Part shown: piece by piece, positions 8,153 through 47,637 of the stretch | How the letters are laid out: each line of letters starts with the position of its first letter | How positions within the stretch are numbered: position 1 is the stretch's first letter | DNA from: Ruania zhangjianzhongii | GTDB taxonomy: Bacteria > Actinomycetota > Actinomycetes > Actinomycetales > Beutenbergiaceae | Direction of reading: 5' to 3' | Assembly (NCBI RefSeq): GCF_008000995.1 | Contig: NZ_CP042828.1 | Coordinates: forward strand, 4,702,882-4,766,881 | Length of the DNA stretch: 64,000 bases | Notes under the pieces: model-generated | What the model saw: the letters and a program-made list of their open reading frames with translations, nothing else | Databases searched by the model: none | Told to the model about the DNA's origin: nothing | Position numbers and translations under genes: made by a program

Positions 8153-8974
8153 ATGCGACGATCACTGCACCCACATTCACCCCCACGTCACGGCAGCCGA
8201 GAGGAACCGGAGGCGGTGCCGCTCCACCCGGGCGCGGCGATGCGCCCGGGCCAGGCACCGGGAGCTCCGGAGCTGATCCGCCACCTGCAGCGCGCCGGCA
8301 ACGCGGCCGTGGCCGCGCACCTGGCCAGGAACTCGGCATCGCTGCAACGCGGCAAGACCACTGGCACCGCTCCGGGCAAGGGGCAACGCAAGCGAAAGCG
8401 CGCGTTCGACGATGAGGCTTACATTCCGCCTTGGAAACGAAAGAAAGCGCCGCGCGCCATCGGCAAATCGACGAAGGTGCGTGATGCGCGCTGGAAGCGC
8501 AAGGCCCGTCGGTTTAACGCTCAGGGCAAGCCCATCAGCAAGGCCGACTGGGGTACCGGCTACGAGGCCCAGCACATCATTCCTGCGGAAATCTGGGACA
8601 AGGAGATCACCGTCGACACCGGCCTCTCGAAGGCCGACCTCGTGGACCGGGGATGGAACGGCATGATGCTTCCGTCCGGTCGCAAGAATGCCCGGGCCAT
8701 CACCTATAAGTTGCTGACCAAGGGCAGCACTCTGCCTCGGCATATCACCAAGGGGTGGGCACATCCGCTCTACAACGCGGCGGTCAGGAGGTTGGTCCGT
8801 GCCATCCAGGCCCTCCGCCCTCCCGGATGGAAGTGGACCGAGCCGTGGCTCAAGGGGCTGGCCGACTTTCTCCGAAAGGTGACGAAGTCGCTGGCAGTGC
8901 CCCACGGGGCCGTGCCGGTGGGTATCGATGCGATCGGCGCCCTGGATCCGGCCAAGGTCACACCGCGCCAGTGA
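8153..8974 (+). CDS. Putative secreted toxin: GNAAV-motif leader plus AHH/HNH-type nuclease domain
   Basis: A 273-residue protein in two parts. Residues 1-66 are polar and Pro/His-rich with ELIRHLQRAGNAAVAAHLAR (40-59), a motif of the LQRxxGNxAV kind seen near the N-terminus of DUF4157 and other cargo of extracellular contractile injection systems. A very basic linker (68-120, many Lys/Arg) follows. Residues 137-215 look like an AHH/endonuclease-VII-fold nuclease: YEAQHIIP (His141), GWNGMMLPS (Asn169), a His at 197 and GWAHPLYNAAV (His204). The ATG has a GGAGG six bases upstream. Several AAG/AAA-rich codons around 8390-8480 make this stretch less GC-rich than its neighbours, suggesting transfer. 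No secretion machinery or immunity gene is visible nearby. The nuclease call is motif-based. Confidence 0.6.
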   Translation: MRRSLHPHSPPRHGSREEPEAVPLHPGAAMRPGQAPGAPELIRHLQRAGNAAVAAHLARNSASLQRGKTTGTAPGKGQRKRKRAFDDEAYIPPWKRKKAPRAIGKSTKVRDARWKRKARRFNAQGKPISKADWGTGYEAQHIIPAEIWDKEITVDTGLSKADLVDRGWNGMMLPSGRKNARAITYKLLTKGSTLPRHITKGWAHPLYNAAVRRLVRAIQALRPPGWKWTEPWLKGLADFLRKVTKSLAVPHGAVPVGIDAIGALDPAKVTPRQ

Positions 8975-9641
8975 GCAGCTGCGCCTTCCCGTCCACGATC
9001 TCCACCACATCGTCGGCCTGCGCCAGCTGGTCGTGGTCGTGGGTGACCATCACCGTGGCCACGTCCCGCTCCAGGGTGAGCCGGCGAAGCAACCCGAGCA
9101 CGGCGGCGCCGCGCTCGGAGTCCAGGGCGCTGGTCGGTTCATCCACGAGCAGCAGACTGGGCTCGTTCATCAGCCCACGGGCGATCGTCACCCGCTGGCG
9201 CTGACCACCGGAGAGCTGGTGCGGGCGCCGGCCCGCCTGCTTGGCCAGGCCGACGGCGTCGAGCAGCTCCATCGCCTGCTTCTCGGCCTTCGCCACCGAC
9301 CGGCCACCCAGGTGCGCCATCACGGTCAACTGCTCCAGGGCAGTCAGCGACGCGAGCAGGTTGGAGGTCTGGAACACGATGCCGATCTCCTCCCGGCGTA
9401 CTCGGGCCCGCTCACCGCTGCTCAGTGCGGTCAGCTCGGTCCCGTCCAGCAGCACCTGCCCCTCCTCGGGGGTGATCAGCGTGGCGGCCACGGCGAGCAG
9501 ACTGGACTTGCCAGAGCCGGAGGGCCCGACGACGGCGGTCACCCGGCCCGGTTCGGCGCGCATGGTCACGTGGTCCAGCGCGGTCAGTCGGGAGTCGCCG
9601 TCGGGGTAGGTGAGGGTGATGTCAGTCAGCTGCAGGGTCAT
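8958..9641 (-). CDS. ABC transporter ATP-binding protein (MacB/LolD class)
   Basis: ATPase of 227 residues with Walker A (GPSGSGKSS at about 39-47), a Q-loop (VFQTSNLLASLTALEQ), the signature LSGGQRQRV, Walker B (LLLVDEPTSALD) and the H-loop His (VTHDHD). The class pairs with FtsX-like permeases that export substrates or act mechanically in the envelope. The permease gene lies 69 bases upstream on the same strand. AAGGAG precedes the ATG. Its 3' end overlaps the 3' end of the convergent nuclease gene by 17 bases. Confidence 0.92.
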   Translation of the reverse strand: MTLQLTDITLTYPDGDSRLTALDHVTMRAEPGRVTAVVGPSGSGKSSLLAVAATLITPEEGQVLLDGTELTALSSGERARVRREEIGIVFQTSNLLASLTALEQLTVMAHLGGRSVAKAEKQAMELLDAVGLAKQAGRRPHQLSGGQRQRVTIARGLMNEPSLLLVDEPTSALDSERGAAVLGLLRRLTLERDVATVMVTHDHDQLAQADDVVEIVDGKAQLLTGAV

Positions 9642-9710
9642 CGGATTCTCCTTCAGGGCGGTCGGGCAGTACGGCAGCAGTCAAGCGAGTGTGGCGACGC
9701 AGGGTGCGCG

Positions 9711-10784
9711 TCAACGAGCGCTGCCCAGAGCAGTCAGCGGGTCGACGGAAACGATCTGACGCAGCGAGACCGCCGCCCCGAGCAGGCCGAGCACGATCAG
9801 TAACCCCATCGGGACCAGCACTGTCGCGGCGTCCAGCACGAACGGCACCACCCCCGCCGCGAGCGCGCCGATTCCGGTGGCCACCCCGGCACCGAGCACG
9901 GTCCCGAGGAGCAGGAGCACCAGCGCCTGACCCACCGCGTCCTTCACCAGGTAGCCGGTCGAGGCGCCGACAGCCTTGAGCACAGCGATCTCCGGGGTGC
10001 GCTGGACCGTCCACACGGTGAAGAACGCGCCGATCACCAGAGCAGAGATCACCAGCAGCAGGCCGCGCATCAGCTGCAGCGAACCGTTCTCGCTGCTGAA
10101 CGAGGCCAGCGCCTGCACCGAGTCGGCCAGCGGCACGGTCTCGGTGCCGGCAGCCGCATCGGCGGCCTCCCGATCGGTGTCGGTGAGCCCGTCGGTGGTC
10201 AGCACCAGCACCGTGGCGGCATTGGCGTGCTGCTCACCGCCGTCGGGGTCCAACCCGGCCGGCAGCCACGCCACCGGCATGTGCGAGTACGCGTCGTCGC
10301 CGCTGATCCCGCCCACCTGCAGGGCTTCGCCGCCGATCGTGACCTCGTCCCCGGCCGTCAGGTCGAGATCGTCCGCCACCGATTCGGGCAGCAACACCTG
10401 CCCGTCCGGCACGTCCGCCGGCGGCAGCGCGGACCCTTCCGGAACTGCGAACGCGGCCACCGTCGCGGACCGCTCCCCCACGGTCATCCGGCTGGTGCGG
10501 ATCTGCAGCGGCTGTACCTCAGACACCCCGGACTCCTCCTGCCAGACCTGAGCGGCGCCGTCGGGAATCAACGACTCGGAGAAGCTCAGCGACTGACCCT
10601 CCGGCGGTGCGGCGAAGACCACCTCGTCCCCGGGTAGCCCGAGGATGGCGGAGGTGTTCTCCCGGGCGAGCCCCGCCGTCAGCCCGGAGAGCAGCACCAC
10701 GAGCAGGGTGATCAGGGCGACCACCCCGCCCATCAGGGCGAACCGGCCCTTGGCGAACTTCAGATCTCGGACGGCAACGAACAT
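9711..10784 (-). CDS. FtsX-like ABC transporter permease
   Basis: 357-residue permease of MacB/FtsX topology: one N-terminal membrane helix (about 17-38), a large extracytoplasmic domain (about 40-230), then three helices (about 240-265, 285-310, 325-345). The C-terminal SVDPLTALG is the family's typical ending near the membrane (the P-x-x-AL motif). GAGGAG sits at good distance from the ATG. Together with the downstream ATPase it makes a two-gene exporter. It diverges from a histidine kinase/response regulator pair, which probably regulates it in response to envelope stress or an antimicrobial. Confidence 0.9.
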   Translation of the reverse strand: MFVAVRDLKFAKGRFALMGGVVALITLLVVLLSGLTAGLARENTSAILGLPGDEVVFAAPPEGQSLSFSESLIPDGAAQVWQEESGVSEVQPLQIRTSRMTVGERSATVAAFAVPEGSALPPADVPDGQVLLPESVADDLDLTAGDEVTIGGEALQVGGISGDDAYSHMPVAWLPAGLDPDGGEQHANAATVLVLTTDGLTDTDREAADAAAGTETVPLADSVQALASFSSENGSLQLMRGLLLVISALVIGAFFTVWTVQRTPEIAVLKAVGASTGYLVKDAVGQALVLLLLGTVLGAGVATGIGALAAGVVPFVLDAATVLVPMGLLIVLGLLGAAVSLRQIVSVDPLTALGSAR

Positions 10785-40818: not shown

Positions 40819-41211
40819 TCAGCGGGCCGGCCGTACGTCGGTGTGGCCGAAGTCGTCACCTTTGAACAACAACGGATCTCTGGCGACCGCTGCGAGCGCG
40901 TAGCTGAAGCAGTCCCCGAAATTCAGGCGCGCAGGATGGCCAGATCCGCATCCGTAGTCCCGATACGCGGCCCGCGCGAGCCGGGCCTGTTCCGGGCTGA
41001 CCTCGGCGACCGTCACGCCTAGTGCATCGAGGACCTCGTCCAGCTGCCTGGTCAGGACCGGATCACCTACCCGGTCGAGCACTATGCCGAGCTCCAGATA
41101 ACTGGCCGCGGAGATCCGTACTGTCGCCGCCCGCTGGATCGCGGTACGGAATTCGGCCGTCTCCGGCTCTCCACGCAGGATCGCGACGATGGCGGACGTG
41201 TCGACGATCAT
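40819..41211 (-). CDS. vapC: VapC-type PIN-domain toxin ribonuclease
   Basis: 130 residues with PIN-fold acidic residues: [12 protein letters not shown] (Asp4), [12 protein letters not shown] (Glu), [11 protein letters not shown] (Asp) and [11 protein letters not shown] (Asp). Cleaves RNA, often tRNA or rRNA, when free of antitoxin. ATGA overlap with vapB. The neighbouring tRNA-Gly gene is on the other strand and convergent. Confidence 0.93.
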
Positions 41212-41465
41212 CGGGGCAGACCGGCGCGGTCGTACAGTTCCTCGGTGTCGAGGGCAGGCTCACCGGCGGAGCGCAGCCGCGTCTGGACATCCGCCAGAAG
41301 CTGGTCCAGCCGTTGGCCCCGGCTCGCCGCGCCGTCGTCACGGGGCAACTCGTCCAGATAGCGCTCCAGCGCCGCCTCGATGGCACTGGTCTGAGTCCGG
41401 CCGGTCCGGCGCGCTGCCTCGCGGGCCAGCGCATGCACTCGCTCATTCTTGATGTTCAGGCTCAT
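41208..41465 (-). CDS. vapB: VapB-type antitoxin
   Basis: 85 residues: N-terminal ribbon-helix-helix-like [20 protein letters not shown] and [20 protein letters not shown] form the DNA-binding part, followed by a disordered toxin-binding tail with LYDRAGLPR. The ATG was chosen over a GTG one codon earlier because TAGAAT is exactly six bases upstream, a leaderless start. Autoregulation is expected through TCTACC repeats at the promoter. Confidence 0.92.
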
Positions 41466-41471
41466 CACGAG

Positions 41472-41507
41472 ATTCTACCGTGCGCATCTCGAGTCTACCT
41501 TTCTACC
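41472..41507 (-). promoter_or_regulatory. vapBC promoter with three TCTACC/GGTAGA repeats
   Basis: On the plus strand TCTACC occurs at 41474, 41494 and 41502 (GGTAGA in the transcribed direction). The first overlaps the -10 TAGAAT (41477 to 41472). Spacing of about 20 and 8 bases suggests binding of VapB/VapBC for autorepression. Confidence 0.55.
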
Positions 41508-41570
41508 ATCACGTGCGACGCATGGCCGAGAGCGGGACGGCAGCATCGCCCCGAGGCGCTTTACCGTATC

Positions 41571-41599
41571 TTGACATCGTCATGCCGAGCGCTTAGTTT
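41571..41599 (+). promoter_or_regulatory. Consensus sigma-70-like promoter
   Basis: TTGACA at 41571-41576 and TAGTTT at 41594-41599 with exactly 17 bases between. The ATG of a small ORF follows the -10 by five bases, so the transcript begins at or very near that ATG. It drives the kinase/enolase-like/SDR/lactonase operon. Confidence 0.8.
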
Positions 41600-41604
41600 C
41601 ACCG

Positions 41605-41712
41605 ATGTCCGAACAGACGGAGGATCATGGTCGATCAGAGGTCGGGAGCCACCCGGCTGCTGAGCAGACTGGTCCAGCAGTGTCCGCCGTGGACAAGGCC
41701 GCCCGGCAATGA
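41605..41712 (+). CDS. 35-residue leaderless ORF coupled to the kinase gene
   Basis: ATG lies five bases after the -10 box TAGTTT. The ORF encodes 35 residues beginning MSEQTEDHGRSEVG, hydrophilic, with no membrane segment or known motif. Its stop overlaps the kinase ATG as ATGA, exactly as at the other three junctions of the operon, so ribosomes loading on the leaderless start would pass to the kinase gene. It may be a functional small protein or only a leader whose translation drives the operon; I see no attenuator-type codon run. Confidence 0.6.
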   Translation: MSEQTEDHGRSEVGSHPAAEQTGPAVSAVDKAARQ

Positions 41713-42806
41713 CTGAACCGCTCTCCGGCTGGTCGACCACCCGTATCGAGAGCCACCTGCGACAGCGCGGCATCTGGTCCGGTCCCGCCCCACAGGTGCG
41801 GACACTCGCTGGCGGGGTCTCCGGGACGGTGCTGCGACTGGATGGGCCGGACCGGAGCCTGGTGCTCAAACAGGCCCTCGCGGAGCTGAACGTCCCGGCC
41901 GTGTGGCAGGCGGACCCGCGCCGGATCCTCACTGAAGCGGACGCGTTGCGTACGTTGCACCGGATCAGTGCGGATCATGCACCGGCGGTCCTGGACTGTG
42001 ATCGAGACGAGCTCCTGCTGGCGATGCAGGCTGCTCCGGAGGCCTGGCACACCTGGAAGGAACAGCTGCTGGCGGGGCAGCCGGCCAGCGAGGCCGAGCA
42101 GGTGGCCCGCTCGCTCGGTCACCAGGTGCGACTCTGGCACCAGGCCACAACAGCCGCCGAATGGCCCACCGGGGCCCCGGACCGGCAACGCTTCGCCCCG
42201 ACCGCAGACTTCACCGCGCTCCGGCTGGACCCGTTCTACCGTCACGTTGCCGACCAGCACGGTGGCCGGATCGCCGAGCGTCTGCACCAGCTCGCCGACG
42301 GACTGCTCACCGCGCAGACCTGCCTGGTGCACGGGGACCTGTCCCCGAAGAACATCCTTCGCCCGGCCGGACCTGGCACCGAGTGGTGGCTGGTGGACAG
42401 CGAGTGCGCTGTGCTCGGCGACCCGGTGTTCGATGTCGCGTTCTTGCTCACTCACCTGCTGCTGAAGAGTCTCGATCCGGAACGTACTGAGCTGCGCACC
42501 GCGGCCCAGGAGTTCTGGCGCGCGTACTGCCAGCCGGCAGCACCGCAAACACCGCGACCCGGGGCACCCCGGACCGGAGCATCGCGCGCTCGAGCGGCGG
42601 TGCACGAACCGTTGCCGGAAGTACACCTGGTCGCCCACTGCGCGGCCCTGATGTTGGCACGCGTCGACGGCGTCTCGAAGGTCGGCTACCTCACCGCCGC
42701 CCAGGTGGAGCTCGTCCGCCGGCAGGCCACCCGGGCGCTGCTCGAGGAGACCGATAGCCTGACCGGCTACCTCGATCTGATCGGCACCGACGGGAGCACA
42801 GGATGA
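41709..42806 (+). CDS. APH/choline-kinase-fold phosphotransferase, operon gene 2
   Basis: 365 residues. ATP-binding Lys in RSLVLKQAL, catalytic loop LVHGDLSPKNILR (about 207-218) and metal-binding Asp in WWLVDSECAVLGDPVFDVAF, where the family's usual DxE/DFG is DSE. This DSE pattern resembles methylthioribose kinase and similar sugar/polyol kinases. A Pro/Arg-rich stretch (about 275-300) interrupts the C-lobe. Coupled by ATGA overlaps to the small ORF upstream and the enolase-like gene downstream, suggesting that it makes the phosphorylated substrate of the latter. Confidence 0.8.
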   Translation: MTEPLSGWSTTRIESHLRQRGIWSGPAPQVRTLAGGVSGTVLRLDGPDRSLVLKQALAELNVPAVWQADPRRILTEADALRTLHRISADHAPAVLDCDRDELLLAMQAAPEAWHTWKEQLLAGQPASEAEQVARSLGHQVRLWHQATTAAEWPTGAPDRQRFAPTADFTALRLDPFYRHVADQHGGRIAERLHQLADGLLTAQTCLVHGDLSPKNILRPAGPGTEWWLVDSECAVLGDPVFDVAFLLTHLLLKSLDPERTELRTAAQEFWRAYCQPAAPQTPRPGAPRTGASRARAAVHEPLPEVHLVAHCAALMLARVDGVSKVGYLTAAQVELVRRQATRALLEETDSLTGYLDLIGTDGSTG

Positions 42807-44140
42807 GCACAGCCACGATCGCGCAGGTACGCGCCTGGGAGGCCCTGGACTCCCGTGGCCGGCCGACCGTCGCCTGCCGGGTGGACCTGGCCGGCGGCGG
42901 AATCGGCGTAGCACGTGTCCCCTCCGGCGCCTCCACCGGGAGCCATGAAGCACTCGAGCTGCGCGATGGCGGCTCACGATATGCGGGAGCGGGAGTACGC
43001 ACGGCGATCAACGCCGTCGAGAAGTATCTGGCCCCGGCCACCCACGGGCTCCCGGCGACGGACGCAGCGGCGGTCGACCGCGCGATCGACCAGGTGTGGC
43101 AGCAGCGCGGCGCGGACCAGATCGGCGCGAACGCCACGCTCGCCGTGTCGCTGGCAGCGGTCCTGGCCGCCGCCGACGCCGAGCGCATCCCGCTCGCCCG
43201 GATGCTCCGGCCCGAGGGTCCGTTGCCGCTCCCGATGCCGATGGTGAACATCGTCTCCGGCGGGGCGCACGCTGCCGGCGCGATCGATCTGCAGGATTTC
43301 CTGGTGATCCCCGAGGGTGCGCAGACGTTCGCCGAGGCGATCGAGTGGGTGAGCCGGATCCGGGCCGCTGCGCGCACCGTCGCCGAACAGCGGGGGTTTC
43401 CGCAGGCGCACCTGGTGGCGGACGAAGGCGGGCTCGGTCTCCCGCTCGGCTCCAACCGGGCGGCACTGGACCTGCTGTGTGAGGCCGTCGAGGCCAGCGG
43501 GCTCGAGCTGGGAGGCCAGGTGAGATTCGCCATCGATGCTGCGGCGAGTGAGTTCCAGACCTCCCGCGGCTATCACCTGGCCACCGAGGACCGCACGCTC
43601 TCGGCCGAGGAACTGGTCGCCATGTACGCCGGCTGGATCCGGCGCTACCCGATCCGGTCGATCGAGGATCCGCTCGGTGAGGACGACTGGGCCGGCTGGC
43701 AGCTGGCTACCCGGGAGCTGGCCAGCCGCGTCGACCTGGTGGGGGATGACCTGTTCGTCACCCAGGCTGAGCGGCTGCGCCGCGGGGTCACTTCCAGGTG
43801 CGGTTCGTCGATCCTGATCAAGGTGAACCAGAACGGGCTGGTCACCCGCACCCAGGAGGTGCTCGGCATCGCCAAGGGCGCCGGCTACCGCACCGTGGTC
43901 TCGGCACGTTCCGGCGAGACCGAGGACTCCTGGGTGGCGGACCTGGCGGTCGGCTGGGATGCCGGCCAGCTCAAAGTGGGCTCGACGCACCGCTCCGAGC
44001 GCACCGCGAAGTGGAACCGTGTGCTGGAGCTCGAGGCGACCGAGGAGACCGTGCTGCGGCACCCGTGGTCGCGGGCAGAAGAGCACCGGCAGCCTGCAGA
44101 AGGTGGCCGACCACCGGCAGAGGAACAGGAGCAGTCATGA
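42803..44140 (+). CDS. Enolase paralogue with altered active site
   Basis: 445 residues, full enolase fold: DSRGRPTVACRVDL, PSGASTGSHEALELRDG (43-46 loop), GGAHA (His156), ADEGG (Glu208), metal ligands Asp245, Glu288 and Asp315, and the catalytic Lys340 (ILIKVNQNG) and Lys391 are kept. However the enolase His373 position (yeast numbering, VVSHRSGETED) is Ala368 in VVSARSGETED, and Glu168 is Asp165 in LQDFLV. These residues contact or help dehydrate 2-phosphoglycerate, so a different phosphorylated hydroxy-acid substrate is likely. C-terminal 25 residues are Glu/Pro-rich. ATGA overlaps both sides. It is not the housekeeping eno by context; that gene should lie elsewhere. Confidence 0.85.
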   Translation: MSTATIAQVRAWEALDSRGRPTVACRVDLAGGGIGVARVPSGASTGSHEALELRDGGSRYAGAGVRTAINAVEKYLAPATHGLPATDAAAVDRAIDQVWQQRGADQIGANATLAVSLAAVLAAADAERIPLARMLRPEGPLPLPMPMVNIVSGGAHAAGAIDLQDFLVIPEGAQTFAEAIEWVSRIRAAARTVAEQRGFPQAHLVADEGGLGLPLGSNRAALDLLCEAVEASGLELGGQVRFAIDAAASEFQTSRGYHLATEDRTLSAEELVAMYAGWIRRYPIRSIEDPLGEDDWAGWQLATRELASRVDLVGDDLFVTQAERLRRGVTSRCGSSILIKVNQNGLVTRTQEVLGIAKGAGYRTVVSARSGETEDSWVADLAVGWDAGQLKVGSTHRSERTAKWNRVLELEATEETVLRHPWSRAEEHRQPAEGGRPPAEEQEQS

Positions 44141-44862
44141 CTCGTACCGTGATCGTCACCGGCGGCGCTTCCGGGATCGGCTGGGAGATGTGCCGCGCCT
44201 TCGCCGACCTCGGCGACGAGGTGCACCTGTGCGACCTCAACCCGCCGCAGGAGGCGATCGACGCGGTCACCGTGCACGCCCTCGACGTGCGGGACGAGAA
44301 GGCAGTCGCGGCCCTGTTCGACGACGTCGCCGCCTCGGCCGGTCACCTCGACGTGGTCTGCAACAACGCCGGCAACGGCTCGACCACCAACGTGCTGGAC
44401 TGCACCGCGGAGGAATGGGACGCCGTCATGGCGGTGAACGCGAAGGGGGTCTTCCTCGGCACCAAGCACGCCCTGCGGCACATGCTCCCCCAGCAGGACG
44501 GCGCCATCATCAACACGGCGTCGGCGGCCGCGTTGGTCGGCGTCCCGGACCGGGCGTCCTACTCGGCCAGCAAGGGCGCGGTGATCGCGCTCAGCCGTCA
44601 GGTCGCCGCGCAGTATGCGGACAGCGGGGTGCGGTGCAACTGGCTGAACCCCGGCACAGTGGACTCCCCGTGGGTGGGCCGGCTGATGGCCCAGGCCCCG
44701 GATCCGCAGGCCCGGCGCGAACAGCTGGTGGCGCGCCAGCCGATGGGCCGGCTAGGGCAACCGGCGGAGATCGCGGCAGCGGCGGTGTACCTGGCGTCCG
44801 ACGCCGCCAGGTTCATCACCGGCACCGGTCTGGTCCTCGACGGCGGGCTGACCGCGCGATGA
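44137..44862 (+). CDS. SDR-family NAD(P)-dependent dehydrogenase
   Basis: 241 residues, classical SDR: TGGASGIG (8-15), Asp33 after the second strand which favours NAD over NADP, CNNAGNG, Ser129, and catalytic YSASK (Tyr142, Lys146), ending in TGTGLVLDGG. Substrate likely a sugar or its lactol, given the following lactonase. ATGA overlaps at both ends. The sugar oxidised to lactone is not known. Confidence 0.9.
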   Translation: MTRTVIVTGGASGIGWEMCRAFADLGDEVHLCDLNPPQEAIDAVTVHALDVRDEKAVAALFDDVAASAGHLDVVCNNAGNGSTTNVLDCTAEEWDAVMAVNAKGVFLGTKHALRHMLPQQDGAIINTASAAALVGVPDRASYSASKGAVIALSRQVAAQYADSGVRCNWLNPGTVDSPWVGRLMAQAPDPQARREQLVARQPMGRLGQPAEIAAAAVYLASDAARFITGTGLVLDGGLTAR

Positions 44863-45818
44863 GCCTGGATCTCGGTTCTGTCGACCTGAGTGGTACCGCA
44901 CCGGTGGACCTTGCCGCGCTGCCGGCGATCCGGGCGGACGTCGAGGTGGTGGTGCCCGAGCCGGCCGAGGTCGCGGAGGGCCCGCTGTGGCACGAGGGCA
45001 CCATCTGGTGGTGCGACATCACCGCGGGCAGGCTGCACCGGTTGGACGAGCACGGGCAGGCCCAGACTGTCGTGCGTGCGAGCTGGTATCTCTCGGCCTT
45101 GCGGCCGGCTGTGGGTGGCGGTCTGGTCGTGGCTGCGGACGACGGCGTCTATCGCCTTGGTCCGGACAGTACCGCTCCAGACAGTGCCGCTCCAGACGGT
45201 GCCGGTCTGGGCGGTCCCGGACTGGGCGAATCGCTCGGCAGCCCGGGCAACCTGCCGGGGCGGTTCAACGATGCCGCAGTGGCACCGGACGGTTCGCTGT
45301 GGCTGGGGGCGATCTCCGGGGAGGACCGGGAGGGGATGGTGCTGCGTGCCACGGTCGACGGCGATCGGTTCGTTTTCACCGAGGCGGTCAGTGGCGTACG
45401 GCTTCCGAACGGTATCGGCTTCAGCGCCGATGGCAGCGAGATGTTGCTGATCGACTCGTTCCGCTACGCGATCTACGCGTGTGTGGTCGCTGGCGGCACT
45501 GTGGTCAGTGCCCGGCCGTGGGTCCGGTTCGATCCGGACAGTGGTGTGCTGCCGGACGGCTGGTGCCAGGACGCTGAGTCCTGCTGGTGGCTGGCGATCT
45601 GGGGCGGGCGGTGCGTGGTCCGGCTGAGCCCGGACGGTGAACCGCTCGGCCGGCTCGATCTGCCGGTGCAGAACCCCACCTGTACGGCGTTCGGGCCGGT
45701 CGGCGGCAACCAGTTGTGGGTGACCACCGAGGGGCAGGTCGCTGGCGATCCGGCGCTGCTACGGGTGCGGGTGGAGGAGACGGGGGCTCCGGTGGCGCAG
45801 GCTCAGGTGCCGGGCTGA
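44859..45818 (+). CDS. SMP-30/gluconolactonase family lactonase
   Basis: 319 residues, six-bladed propeller: EGPLWHEGTIWWCDI (metal Glu), LPGRFNDAAVAPDGSLWLGAI, GVRLPNGIGFSADGSEMLLIDS (metal Asn) and PDGWCQDAESCWWLAIW (metal Asp). Hydrolyses aldonolactones. A Pro/Ala/Asp-rich insertion (about 105-125) arises from 15-bp repeats encoding SAAPD units. Last gene of the five-ORF operon; a hairpin follows. Confidence 0.88.
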   Translation: MSLDLGSVDLSGTAPVDLAALPAIRADVEVVVPEPAEVAEGPLWHEGTIWWCDITAGRLHRLDEHGQAQTVVRASWYLSALRPAVGGGLVVAADDGVYRLGPDSTAPDSAAPDGAGLGGPGLGESLGSPGNLPGRFNDAAVAPDGSLWLGAISGEDREGMVLRATVDGDRFVFTEAVSGVRLPNGIGFSADGSEMLLIDSFRYAIYACVVAGGTVVSARPWVRFDPDSGVLPDGWCQDAESCWWLAIWGGRCVVRLSPDGEPLGRLDLPVQNPTCTAFGPVGGNQLWVTTEGQVAGDPALLRVRVEETGAPVAQAQVPG

Positions 45819-45840
45819 ACAGCCGTCTGATGATGTTCTT

Positions 45841-45876
45841 GCAGGCTGAGTACGCACATGTCGGTGCTCAGCCTGC
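45841..45876. terminator. Hairpin between the lactonase and pgi genes
   Basis: GCAGGCTGAG (45841-45850) pairs exactly with CTCAGCCTGC (45867-45876) around 16 bases. Located between convergent genes; no T-tract, as common in this group. Confidence 0.6.
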
Positions 45877-45954
45877 CAACCGGTGCTCAAGCGTTTGGTG
45901 ACACGATCCCCTCCCGGTGAGTTCCGCCGTCGGGCATCGGCTCCTGCCGACCGT

Positions 45955-47637
45955 TCACCGTCGCAGCTTCAGGTACTCCTCGATCAGCGCGCGGGTGGAG
46001 GAGTCCTGCTCGGCTAGCGCGACCGCATCGCCGGTCACCGCAGGTGCGACCTGCAGGGCCAGCTGCTTGCCGAGCTCCACCCCCCACTGGTCGAAGGAGT
46101 CGATGCCCCAGACCACGCCTTGCACGAAGGTGATGTGCTCATACAGCGCGATCAGCTGACCGAGCACGCTCGGGGTGAGCTCGGGGGCAAGGATCGAAGT
46201 GGTCGGCCGGTTCCCGGTGAACACCCGCGCCGGGACAATCTCCTCAGCGGTGCCCTCGGCGCGCACCTCGTCGGCGGTCTTGCCGAAGGCGAGTGCCTTG
46301 GTCTGGGCGAAGAAGTTCGCCAGGAACAGGCTGTGCACGTCGGTGCCACCATCACTGAGCGGATGGGCGGGATTGGCCATCGCGATGAAGTCCGCCGGGA
46401 TCACCCGGGTGCCCTGATGGATCAACTGGTAGAAGGCGTGCTGGCCGTTGGTACCCGGCTCGCCCCAGAAGATCTCACCGGTGTCCGTGGTGACCGGGCT
46501 GCCGTCCCAGCGCACCCCCTTGCCGTTGGACTCCATCGTGAGTTGCTGGAGGTAGGCGGGGAACCGGTGCAGATACTGGGCGTAGGGCAGGACCGCGTGG
46601 CTCTCGGCGCCGAGGAAGTTCACGTACCAGATGTTCAGCAGGCCCATCAGGACCGGCACGTTGCGCGCGTGCGGGGTGGTGCGGAAGTGCTCGTCGACGG
46701 CGTGGAAGCCGGCCAGGAACTCCGCGAACCGCTCCGGGCCGATCGCGATCGCCAGCGACGTGCCGATCACCGAGTCCACCGAGTACCGGCCGCCGACCCA
46801 GTCCCAGAACCCGAAGGCGTTCGCCGGGTCGATACCGAAGTCGGCCACCTTGTCCAGCGCGGTGGAGACAGCCACGAAATGCTTCGACACCGCAGCGCTA
46901 CGAGCCTCGCCTCCCTCGCCGAGGGCGTGTGCGGCGGCCAGTTTCTCCCACAGCCACTCCCGGGCCAGGCGGGCGTTGGTGAGCGTCTCGAGGGTGCCGA
47001 ACGTCTTCGAGGCAACGATGAACAGCGTGGTCTCGGGGTCGAGGTCCCGGGTGGTTTCGGCTACGTCCGTGGGGTCGATATTGGAGATGAACCGCACCTC
47101 CAGGTGATCGGCCACGTAAGGGCGGAGCGCCTCGTAGGCCATCACCGGGCCGAGGTCGGAGCCGCCAATGCCGATATTCACCACGGTGCGCACCGGCTTC
47201 CCGGTGACCCCGGTCCACTCCCCGCTGCGGACCTTCTCGGCGAACCCGTACATCTTGTCCAGCTCAGCGTGCACGTCCGCGTCCACGTCCTGGCCGTCCA
47301 CGTGCAGCGGGGGCGTGGCGCCCGCCGGGCGCCGCAGGGCGGTATGCAGCACGGCGCGGTCCTCGGTCGCGTTGATGTGCGCGCCGGAGAACATCTCCTC
47401 GATCCGGCCGGCGAGACCTACCTCGTCGGCAAGCTGGAGCAGTAGCTCGACGGTGCGGTCGGAGATGAGGTTCTTGGACAGGTCCACATGCAGGTCGGCG
47501 GCGCGGAAGCTGTACCGCTGCGCACGGTCGGGCTCGGCAGCGAACCAGCCGCGCAGATCCGGGGTGAGCGAGTCCTGGTGGGCATGCAGGCCGGCCCAGG
47601 CGCGGGTACCGGCGGCGTCGATCGGGGCGGTGGTCAC
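45955..47637 (-). CDS. pgi: Glucose-6-phosphate isomerase
   Basis: 560 residues with PGI signatures: [82 protein letters not shown] and the C-terminal [21 protein letters not shown]. Interconverts glucose-6-P and fructose-6-P. GTG start with AGGAG five bases upstream, TACGGT about 35 bases upstream as -10. No partner genes of glycolysis adjoin it. Confidence 0.97.

Follow-up and report, generated by a model that had tools for sequence, protein, structure and literature searches.

Enolase is usually regarded as having one function only. The described system closest in chemistry to the one reported here is that of glycerate 2-kinase and enolase, which our proposal resembles in that a 2-phosphorylation would be followed by elimination to an enol phosphate, and the closest in setting are the non-phosphorylating (diketo-hydrolase) pathways for L-fucose and L-rhamnose. 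In the L-fucose route fuconate is converted to 2-keto-3-deoxyfuconate by one enzyme, FucC, and the steps set out in the portions of that account drawn on here include no kinase-enolase pair (PMC11199699). We describe a compact plus-strand operon at positions 41571..45818 of a 64,000-nucleotide stretch of the Ruania zhangjianzhongii genome (NZ_CP042828.1, positions 4,702,882 to 4,766,881; hereafter the window), which comprises a mini-ORF (open reading frame), a kinase, an enolase paralogue, a short-chain dehydrogenase/reductase (SDR) and an SMP-30 lactonase. We consider it fairly probable that the kinase and the paralogue, a member of a clade marked by Asp168 and Ala373 (D168/A373, yeast numbering; D/A below), form a two-enzyme relay in a sugar-acid route. 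Their genes are as follows.

41709..42806, plus strand: APH/MTR-kinase-like small-molecule kinase (Pfam APH, 1.1e-14)
42803..44140, plus strand: enolase paralogue of the D168/A373 clade (Pfam Enolase_N, 2.5e-36; Enolase_C, 1.8e-81)

Relative to the glycerate 2-kinase system, the enolase pocket here is altered at C3, and glycerate 2-kinase presumably belongs to a family other than that of the window kinase. The paralogue shares with enolase proper (TIGR01060) its fold, metal ligands, phosphate site, the K345/E211 pair and a family score over the cut-off, and differs from it in the replacement of E168 by Asp and of H373 by Ala, in its separate clade, in its kinase partner and in its sugar-acid neighbours. 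D168 together with A373 was found in 27 of the 28 aligned enolases that are linked to the kinase and in seven further linked ones (34/35 in total); E168/H373 (E/H) is kept in 40 of the 41 unlinked enolases, the sole exception being an interrupted gene (locus L063). No other alignment column splits the D/A from the E/H group completely, the two groups being defined by residues 168 and 373 and matching linkage except at L077 and L063; a partial match, L019, was too short for residue comparison. We take D246, E295 and D320 to be the metal ligands, E211 and K345 the acid/base pair and S39 a phosphate-site residue, and E. coli H369-R370-S371 to be equivalent to yeast H373-R374-S375. All of these other than H373, as well as H159 of the phosphate site, are conserved in the paralogue and the D/A enolases. 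In E. coli enolase, as far as described in the part of the report used, Glu167, Lys392 and His369 contact the ligand hydroxyl that corresponds to the C3-OH of 2-phosphoglycerate, and the Ala40 NH, Ser371, His158, Arg370 and Mg2 bind the phosphate group (PMC6863902); for human enolase 2, Glu167 and His371 are given as corresponding contacts in the section consulted (PMC6651268). Judged by this correspondence, both changed residues are contacts of the C3 hydroxyl, and the D/A enolases retain the residues for phosphate, metal and acid-base function, which argues for enolase chemistry on a 2-phosphate that carries a different C3 group.

Phylogenetically, the D/A enolases together with L077 occupy one side of a branch with support of 100/98, and the D/A grouping persists when columns 168 and 373 are masked and L077 is omitted (SH-aLRT 94, quick search). 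A predicted model of the paralogue (pLDDT 87.7, from 10 sequences) has as its closest solved fold an enolase with 2-phosphoglycerate (7cll, root-mean-square deviation 1.4), and each of the 60 listed (of 67) matches in a PDB sequence search bears the name enolase or phosphopyruvate hydratase, the two alignments seen keeping Glu and His. The genome also carries a second, ordinary enolase (C2:3761601-3762827) that is 44% identical to the paralogue. The suggestion of the initial annotation that the paralogue is unlike a spare glycolytic enolase is supported, and we rejected a duplicate housekeeping enolase on the residue signature, the clade and the kinase partner. Genes of this kind carry the label 'eno, phosphopyruvate hydratase' or enolase and, with enolase seen as having a single function, automated metabolic models would assign them as a spare glycolytic enolase; the two-residue marker and the partner kinase make this likely misannotation easy to spot, and the clade represents a natural experiment on how the C3 specificity of enolase is set. 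Two other enolases deserve mention. A 'hypothetical' gene on an Enterobacter chuandaensis plasmid (L077, 7229-8497, minus strand) encodes a divergent enolase that appears to have moved still further from the enolase type; it lies beside a kinase of this subfamily (8899-9954, plus strand), among D-2-hydroxyacid dehydrogenase-like, U32-like (after the kinase), aminotransferase and MFS transporter genes. Two genomes of the family carry an extra enolase (G002 C1:2195316-2196536 and G003 C55:3224-4441; 41-42%) that keeps E168/H373 and forms its own branch, the kinase being absent from the stretches examined.

The window kinase resembles 5-methylthioribose kinase (MTRK) and other APH/ChoK-fold kinases in its APH fold and in its intact HGDxSxKN and DxE motifs, with D210, N215, D230 and E232 invariant among five aligned kinases. 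Unlike MTRK, it scores 44.2 bits against the MTRK model TIGR01767, far under the cut-off of 275, and has the altered enolase as its partner in nearly all regions examined; against solved structures it gave a weak match to 2pyw. A role in methylthioribose salvage was rejected on the low MTRK score. Linkage of kinase and enolase was found at 35 loci from Actinomycetota, Pseudomonadota (Alpha- and Betaproteobacteria and one Enterobacter), Bacteroidota (Persicobacter) and haloarchaea (Haladaptatus and Halomarina), the distribution in Pseudomonadota and haloarchaea consisting of plasmid records. Searches from the enolase side gave 19 of the 35 (the window, L003-L007, L049, L050, L056-L062, L064, L066, G029 and G044), every one of which has the kinase (19/19), and 16 came via the kinase, namely 14 plasmid regions plus L114 and L115, from two genomes of the order. 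Conversely, an enolase homologue lies within 10 kb of the kinase in 14 of the 15 plasmid regions examined among 33 matching records. One search from the enolase side, in which 11 of the 20 listed rows were examined (1119 records matched), yielded nine D/A enolases with the kinase, one E/H enolase without it (L065) and the interrupted L063. The two genes are neighbours in 28 of the 35 linked loci; in L064, L066, L075, L079, L105, L108 and L109 their centres are 3.8-6.9 kb apart. Counted as linked are also L081, in which kinase and enolase are both split, and L004 from Microlunatus parietis, whose kinase has an in-frame TAG (9588-9590) within its conserved HGD motif region. In a sample of 396 genomes from the phylum, the kinase (E <= 1e-20) and the altered enolase motif SARSGETED coincide in the same three genomes, the window's own included, and in no others (Fisher p 1e-7), in a kinase search that scores few candidates per genome and that distant ones may escape; in the order sample the kinase occurs in 5 of 396 genomes.

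The kinase is the regular partner of the enolase paralogue, and the coupling first proposed from the window alone is supported. Considered as a set in relatives, four of the five genes recur and the mini-ORF is not conserved, a search of the 115 loci having retrieved just its own two copies, with the next-ranked match at E 0.28. L114 and L115 show kinase, enolase, SDR and lactonase in the window order, with an SDR of a different subtype that shares only about 30% identity, and a close SDR (57-82%) accompanies the kinase and enolase in L049, L056, L070 and L071. In our searches of open-access papers, a collection without most subscription papers and preprints, we found no account of the pair or of the D168/A373 clade, which is weak evidence for novelty; the folds and general chemistry are known, and on this evidence the partner, pocket and context appear to be new.

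From the genes, their pairing, the residue changes, the clade and the neighbours we infer a reaction, a phosphorylated position and a place in the route. The kinase would transfer the gamma-phosphate of ATP to the hydroxyl at C2 of a 2-hydroxy acid that stems from a sugar, a position proposed in the initial annotation and consistent with the unchanged phosphate site of the paralogue. The paralogue would hold the product via its carboxylate (two metals) and its 2-phosphate, like ordinary enolase, whereupon K345 would take the C2 proton and E211, as acid, would expel the C3 group, leaving an enol phosphate that is either phosphoenolpyruvate (PEP) itself or PEP with a C3 substituent. As the changes fall on the C3-hydroxyl contacts, the acid should be unlike D-glycerate in the region of C3, the simplest difference being greater size at that position. 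The surrounding route would be of the diketo-hydrolase type, running through the lactonase, a dehydration and oxidation of the 2-keto-3-deoxy acid at C4 by the SDR, and then through FAH-family hydrolysis to pyruvate and a short acid. Stated more generally, the chances seem to us evenly balanced that Bacteria and haloarchaea share a non-glycolytic enolase reaction, in which the kinase 2-phosphorylates an acid that derives from a sugar and is not D-glycerate, whose C3 group is then eliminated by the D168/A373 enolase. At its boldest, this reading holds that the C3 leaving group would not be plain OH and PEP would be released directly, taking a modified sugar to PEP without a phosphatase. If true, this would be a new way into or beside PEP, and the same two pocket changes in bacteria and archaea point to an enolase-like reaction outside glycolysis. 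Two variants were considered and put aside: FAH cutting a 4-keto enol phosphate straight to PEP, dropped as the leaving carbanion would be unstabilised, and a sulfosugar route, for which a reading of the gene lists, with no search aimed at them, showed neither a sulfoquinovosidase nor a sulfite exporter.

The setting of the pair was assessed from the genes around it. Near 33 linked enolases, at distances of up to 10 kb (the loci that supplied queries included), we counted FAH and SDR genes at 14 each, D-2-hydroxyacid dehydrogenase at 12, zinc (MDR) dehydrogenase, SMP-30 lactonase and MR/MLE at four each, and IlvD and PEP carboxylase at three each. At 15 unlinked enolase loci SDR was found once and every other family not at all; these 15 are the longer ones of 40 E/H controls, 25 of which have at most about 1.5 kb of flank, and three of the 15 have about 1 kb on one side. 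Genes in unannotated loci were called with a simple codon-score script and many names were given by eye; an MR/MLE-like end fragment and a short FAH-like gene in L050 (by eye) were left out of the counts. L114 and L115 add further FAH, SDR, lactonase and MR/MLE genes. A KDFDH-like SDR (after L-2-keto-3-deoxyfuconate 4-dehydrogenase) and a diketo-hydrolase-like FAH stand beside the pair in several lineages, as in the L-fucose and L-rhamnose pathways. For the FAH of L073, L056, L007 and L114 the best model is 2,4-didehydro-3-deoxy-L-rhamnonate hydrolase (352, 263, 268 and 278 bits), and that of L073 is closest to the solved hydrolase 8gsr. Dehydratase-family genes lie beside 11 of the 35 pairs: IlvD-type in L005, L007 and L049, MR/MLE-type in L056, L057, L058, L071, L114 and L115, and UxuA-like in L081 and L106. 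The UxuA-like protein of L106 scores 148.6 bits (cut-off 191), and the MR/MLE protein of L114, encoded divergently beside a run of FAH, SDR, kinase, enolase, SDR and lactonase, 576 bits against a galactonate dehydratase cut-off of 311. L073 and L074 each have a run of LacI, kinase, enolase, FAH, SDR and a sugar ABC importer. Lactonase, KDFDH-like SDR, FAH and sugar importers would place the pair in oxidative sugar-acid catabolism, and the sugar-acid setting originally read from the window is upheld insofar as many neighbours across loci are sugar-acid enzymes. The D-2-hydroxyacid dehydrogenase neighbours give a hint of a 2R acid.

Elsewhere in the window genome there are three FAH matches, the best of which (C2:301780-302592, 63% identical to the Embleya FAH) adjoins fuconolactonase-like and KDFDH-like genes, as well as 21 MR/MLE_C matches (one being the housekeeping enolase) and two IlvD matches, and the remaining steps of the route may be supplied from such places. 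The best FAH match lies in a second sugar-acid cluster of the same genome (L091 5639-9605; G000 C2, about 298.6-302.6 kb), composed of aldo/keto-reductase-like, fuconolactonase-like, KDFDH-like SDR and FAH genes with an adjoining GntR-like regulator (some names by eye), and with no dehydratase among the called genes. In Microlunatus, alpha-L-fucosidase-like and GH127-like genes lie beside an MDR-kinase-enolase run (L003 1376-7888, Pfam), and a gene with a similar start occupies the same place in L004 (6017-7870); these genes may point to an L-sugar. Other associations are FolD-, PurU- and GcvT-like one-carbon genes after the pair on a Rhodococcus opacus plasmid (L062 11376-14568, by eye), and U32-peptidase-like (Pfam in L007) and SDR-like proteins upstream of the kinase in L005 and L007.

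The SDR of the window retains R148, T183 and R214 of L-2-keto-3-deoxyfuconate 4-dehydrogenase, together with Q215, and has an Arg one residue before position 192. An R148-T183-R192-R214 pattern marks that enzyme, and 4dqx is placed near the type 2 enzymes, in the parts of the paper that treat them (PMC11199699). The best solved relatives of the window SDR are 4dqx, followed by 4wec and the fuconate enzyme itself. All four residues are present in one SDR each of L073, L074, L081 and L106, and three of them with the Arg one residue earlier in the SDRs of the window, L049, L056, L070 and L071. Because of this KDFDH-like arginine pattern, the window SDR probably acts after dehydration, on a 2-keto-3-deoxy acid rather than on a free sugar, which makes the suggestion that SDR and lactonase together oxidise a sugar to its aldonate doubtful as regards the SDR.

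Where in the route the relay would act can be argued in two ways, and the balance tips slightly toward the short acid left after FAH over the aldonate. In the former case, which we advance tentatively and at rather less than an even chance, the acid released by FAH would be converted to PEP, and could be a C3-modified D-glycerate (e.g. 3-O-substituted) or L-glycerate, neither of them a substrate that the usual glycerate kinase and enolase would accept. L106 and L114/L115 have importers (by eye), lactonase, SDRs, a dehydratase-family gene and FAH, so that the released acid is the step left without an enzyme; PEP as product needs no phosphatase, and PEP carboxylase is a neighbour in the three linked loci noted above. 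L-2-keto-3-deoxyfuconate dehydrogenase also accepts L-2-keto-3-deoxygalactonate according to Table 1 of PMC11199699, and the diketo form of the latter would be expected to yield L-glycerate. However, L-glycerate swaps H and CH2OH at C2, yet K345 is retained and it is the side of the C3 hydroxyl that has changed; the D-2-hydroxyacid dehydrogenases near 12 of 33 enolases suggest a 2R acid, D-galactonate (as in L114) would presumably release plain D-glycerate, and there is no sign of which C3 modification is involved. In the latter case, close to the initial annotation and in our view rather unlikely, the relay would replace a sugar-acid dehydratase, with the lactonase giving an aldonate, the kinase a 2-phospho-aldonate and the paralogue a phosphoenol 2-keto-3-deoxyaldonate, which after dephosphorylation would pass to SDR and FAH. 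No dehydratase was seen among the 20 and 18 annotated genes of L073 and L074 (the gene table being incomplete) or by tblastn of these two loci with four dehydratase queries, one SDR in each has the R-T-R-R pattern, and Ala373, being invariant, suggests more bulk at C3. The IlvD-, MR/MLE- and UxuA-like genes beside 11 of 35 pairs would be redundant if the relay acted on the aldonate, and on their account the substrate may be a smaller acid; nor was a phosphatase for the product seen in the gene lists read, in which no dedicated search was made.

Several observations weigh against a dedicated relay in a sugar-acid route as such. The linked enolase of L077 has D168, K211 and G373; the interrupted L063, located at one end of a plasmid record from Gordonia, has D168 (373 is uncovered) with no kinase in 9.5 kb; and L080, a weak kinase match (59 bits, the weakest listed), has no enolase in its region. 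The FAH scores given above are all under the curated cut-off of 500, no FAH lies within 10 kb of the window enolase, and, should the product be a substituted enol phosphate, no phosphatase common to the clusters was seen in those same gene lists. The full arginine pattern is absent from the SDRs of L005, L007 (two), L050, L057 (two) and L114 (two), as it is from the second SDRs of L073 and L106, and clusters with D-2-hydroxyacid dehydrogenase, VOC, carboxymuconolactone-decarboxylase-like and cupin genes are unlike simple sugar clusters. Finally, the paralogue exceeds the cut-off of the ordinary enolase model TIGR01060 (434.8 versus 300), which, with its unchanged fold and 44% identity to the housekeeping enzyme, would also suit a specialised glycolytic isozyme that acts on 2-phospho-D-glycerate supplied by a glycerate 2-kinase of a new type; the neighbouring genes for PEP carboxylase and D-2-hydroxyacid dehydrogenase resemble a glycerate-to-oxaloacetate segment. 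We think such an isozyme quite improbable, given that both C3-hydroxyl-binding residues are replaced identically in 34 of 35 linked enolases and that the host already has a normal enolase. Marginally less probable again is a kinase that places its phosphate on C3, with the paralogue then expelling it to give a 2-keto-3-deoxy acid directly: no phosphatase would be needed, but the residues that hold the 2-phosphate, and E211, which aids departure of the C3-OH, are conserved in the D/A enolases.

Besides the kinase-enolase pair, the operon contains the following plus-strand features.

41571..41599, plus strand: promoter-like site TTGACA-17-TAGTTT, read directly, about 6 bases 5' of the mini-ORF ATG
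41605..41712, plus strand: mini-ORF of 35 codons, possible leader peptide (ATG 41605, stop 41710-41712)
44137..44862, plus strand: SDR (Pfam adh_short_C2, 8.9e-61)
44859..45818, plus strand: SMP-30/gluconolactonase-family lactonase (Pfam SGL, 8.7e-50; best solved relative 7plb, E 5e-25)

The chaining of the five reading frames by four overlaps was confirmed on re-reading the coordinates, all four junctions sharing 4 bases. The description of the promoter as consensus was overstated: the boxes (TTGACA 41571-41576, TAGTTT 41594-41599) and the 17-base spacer are present, but the -35 box matches 6/6 and the -10 box only 3/6 against TATAAT, and a consensus scan of window positions 41300-46100 that required 4/6 returned no promoter. 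The mini-ORF would be leaderless if this promoter is real; its codon score is below that of 98.7% of 377 real 35-codon segments and above that of 99.7% of 754 wrong-frame segments from the same window, an intermediate value that leads us to suggest that it may be translated. The SGL domain of the lactonase, at 170 bits, is over the Pfam cut-off of 26.3.

The paralogue is carried by 3 of 24 genomes of the family and, within the genus, by one of eight (that of the window), and this patchy distribution suggests a possibly transferred trait; the base composition of the operon is about that of its surroundings. Downstream lies a glucose-6-phosphate isomerase gene (45955-47637, minus strand; Pfam), and directly upstream, on the minus strand (40819-41468; Pfam), a gene resembling those of PIN-domain toxins, paired with an Rv0623-like gene of antitoxin type.

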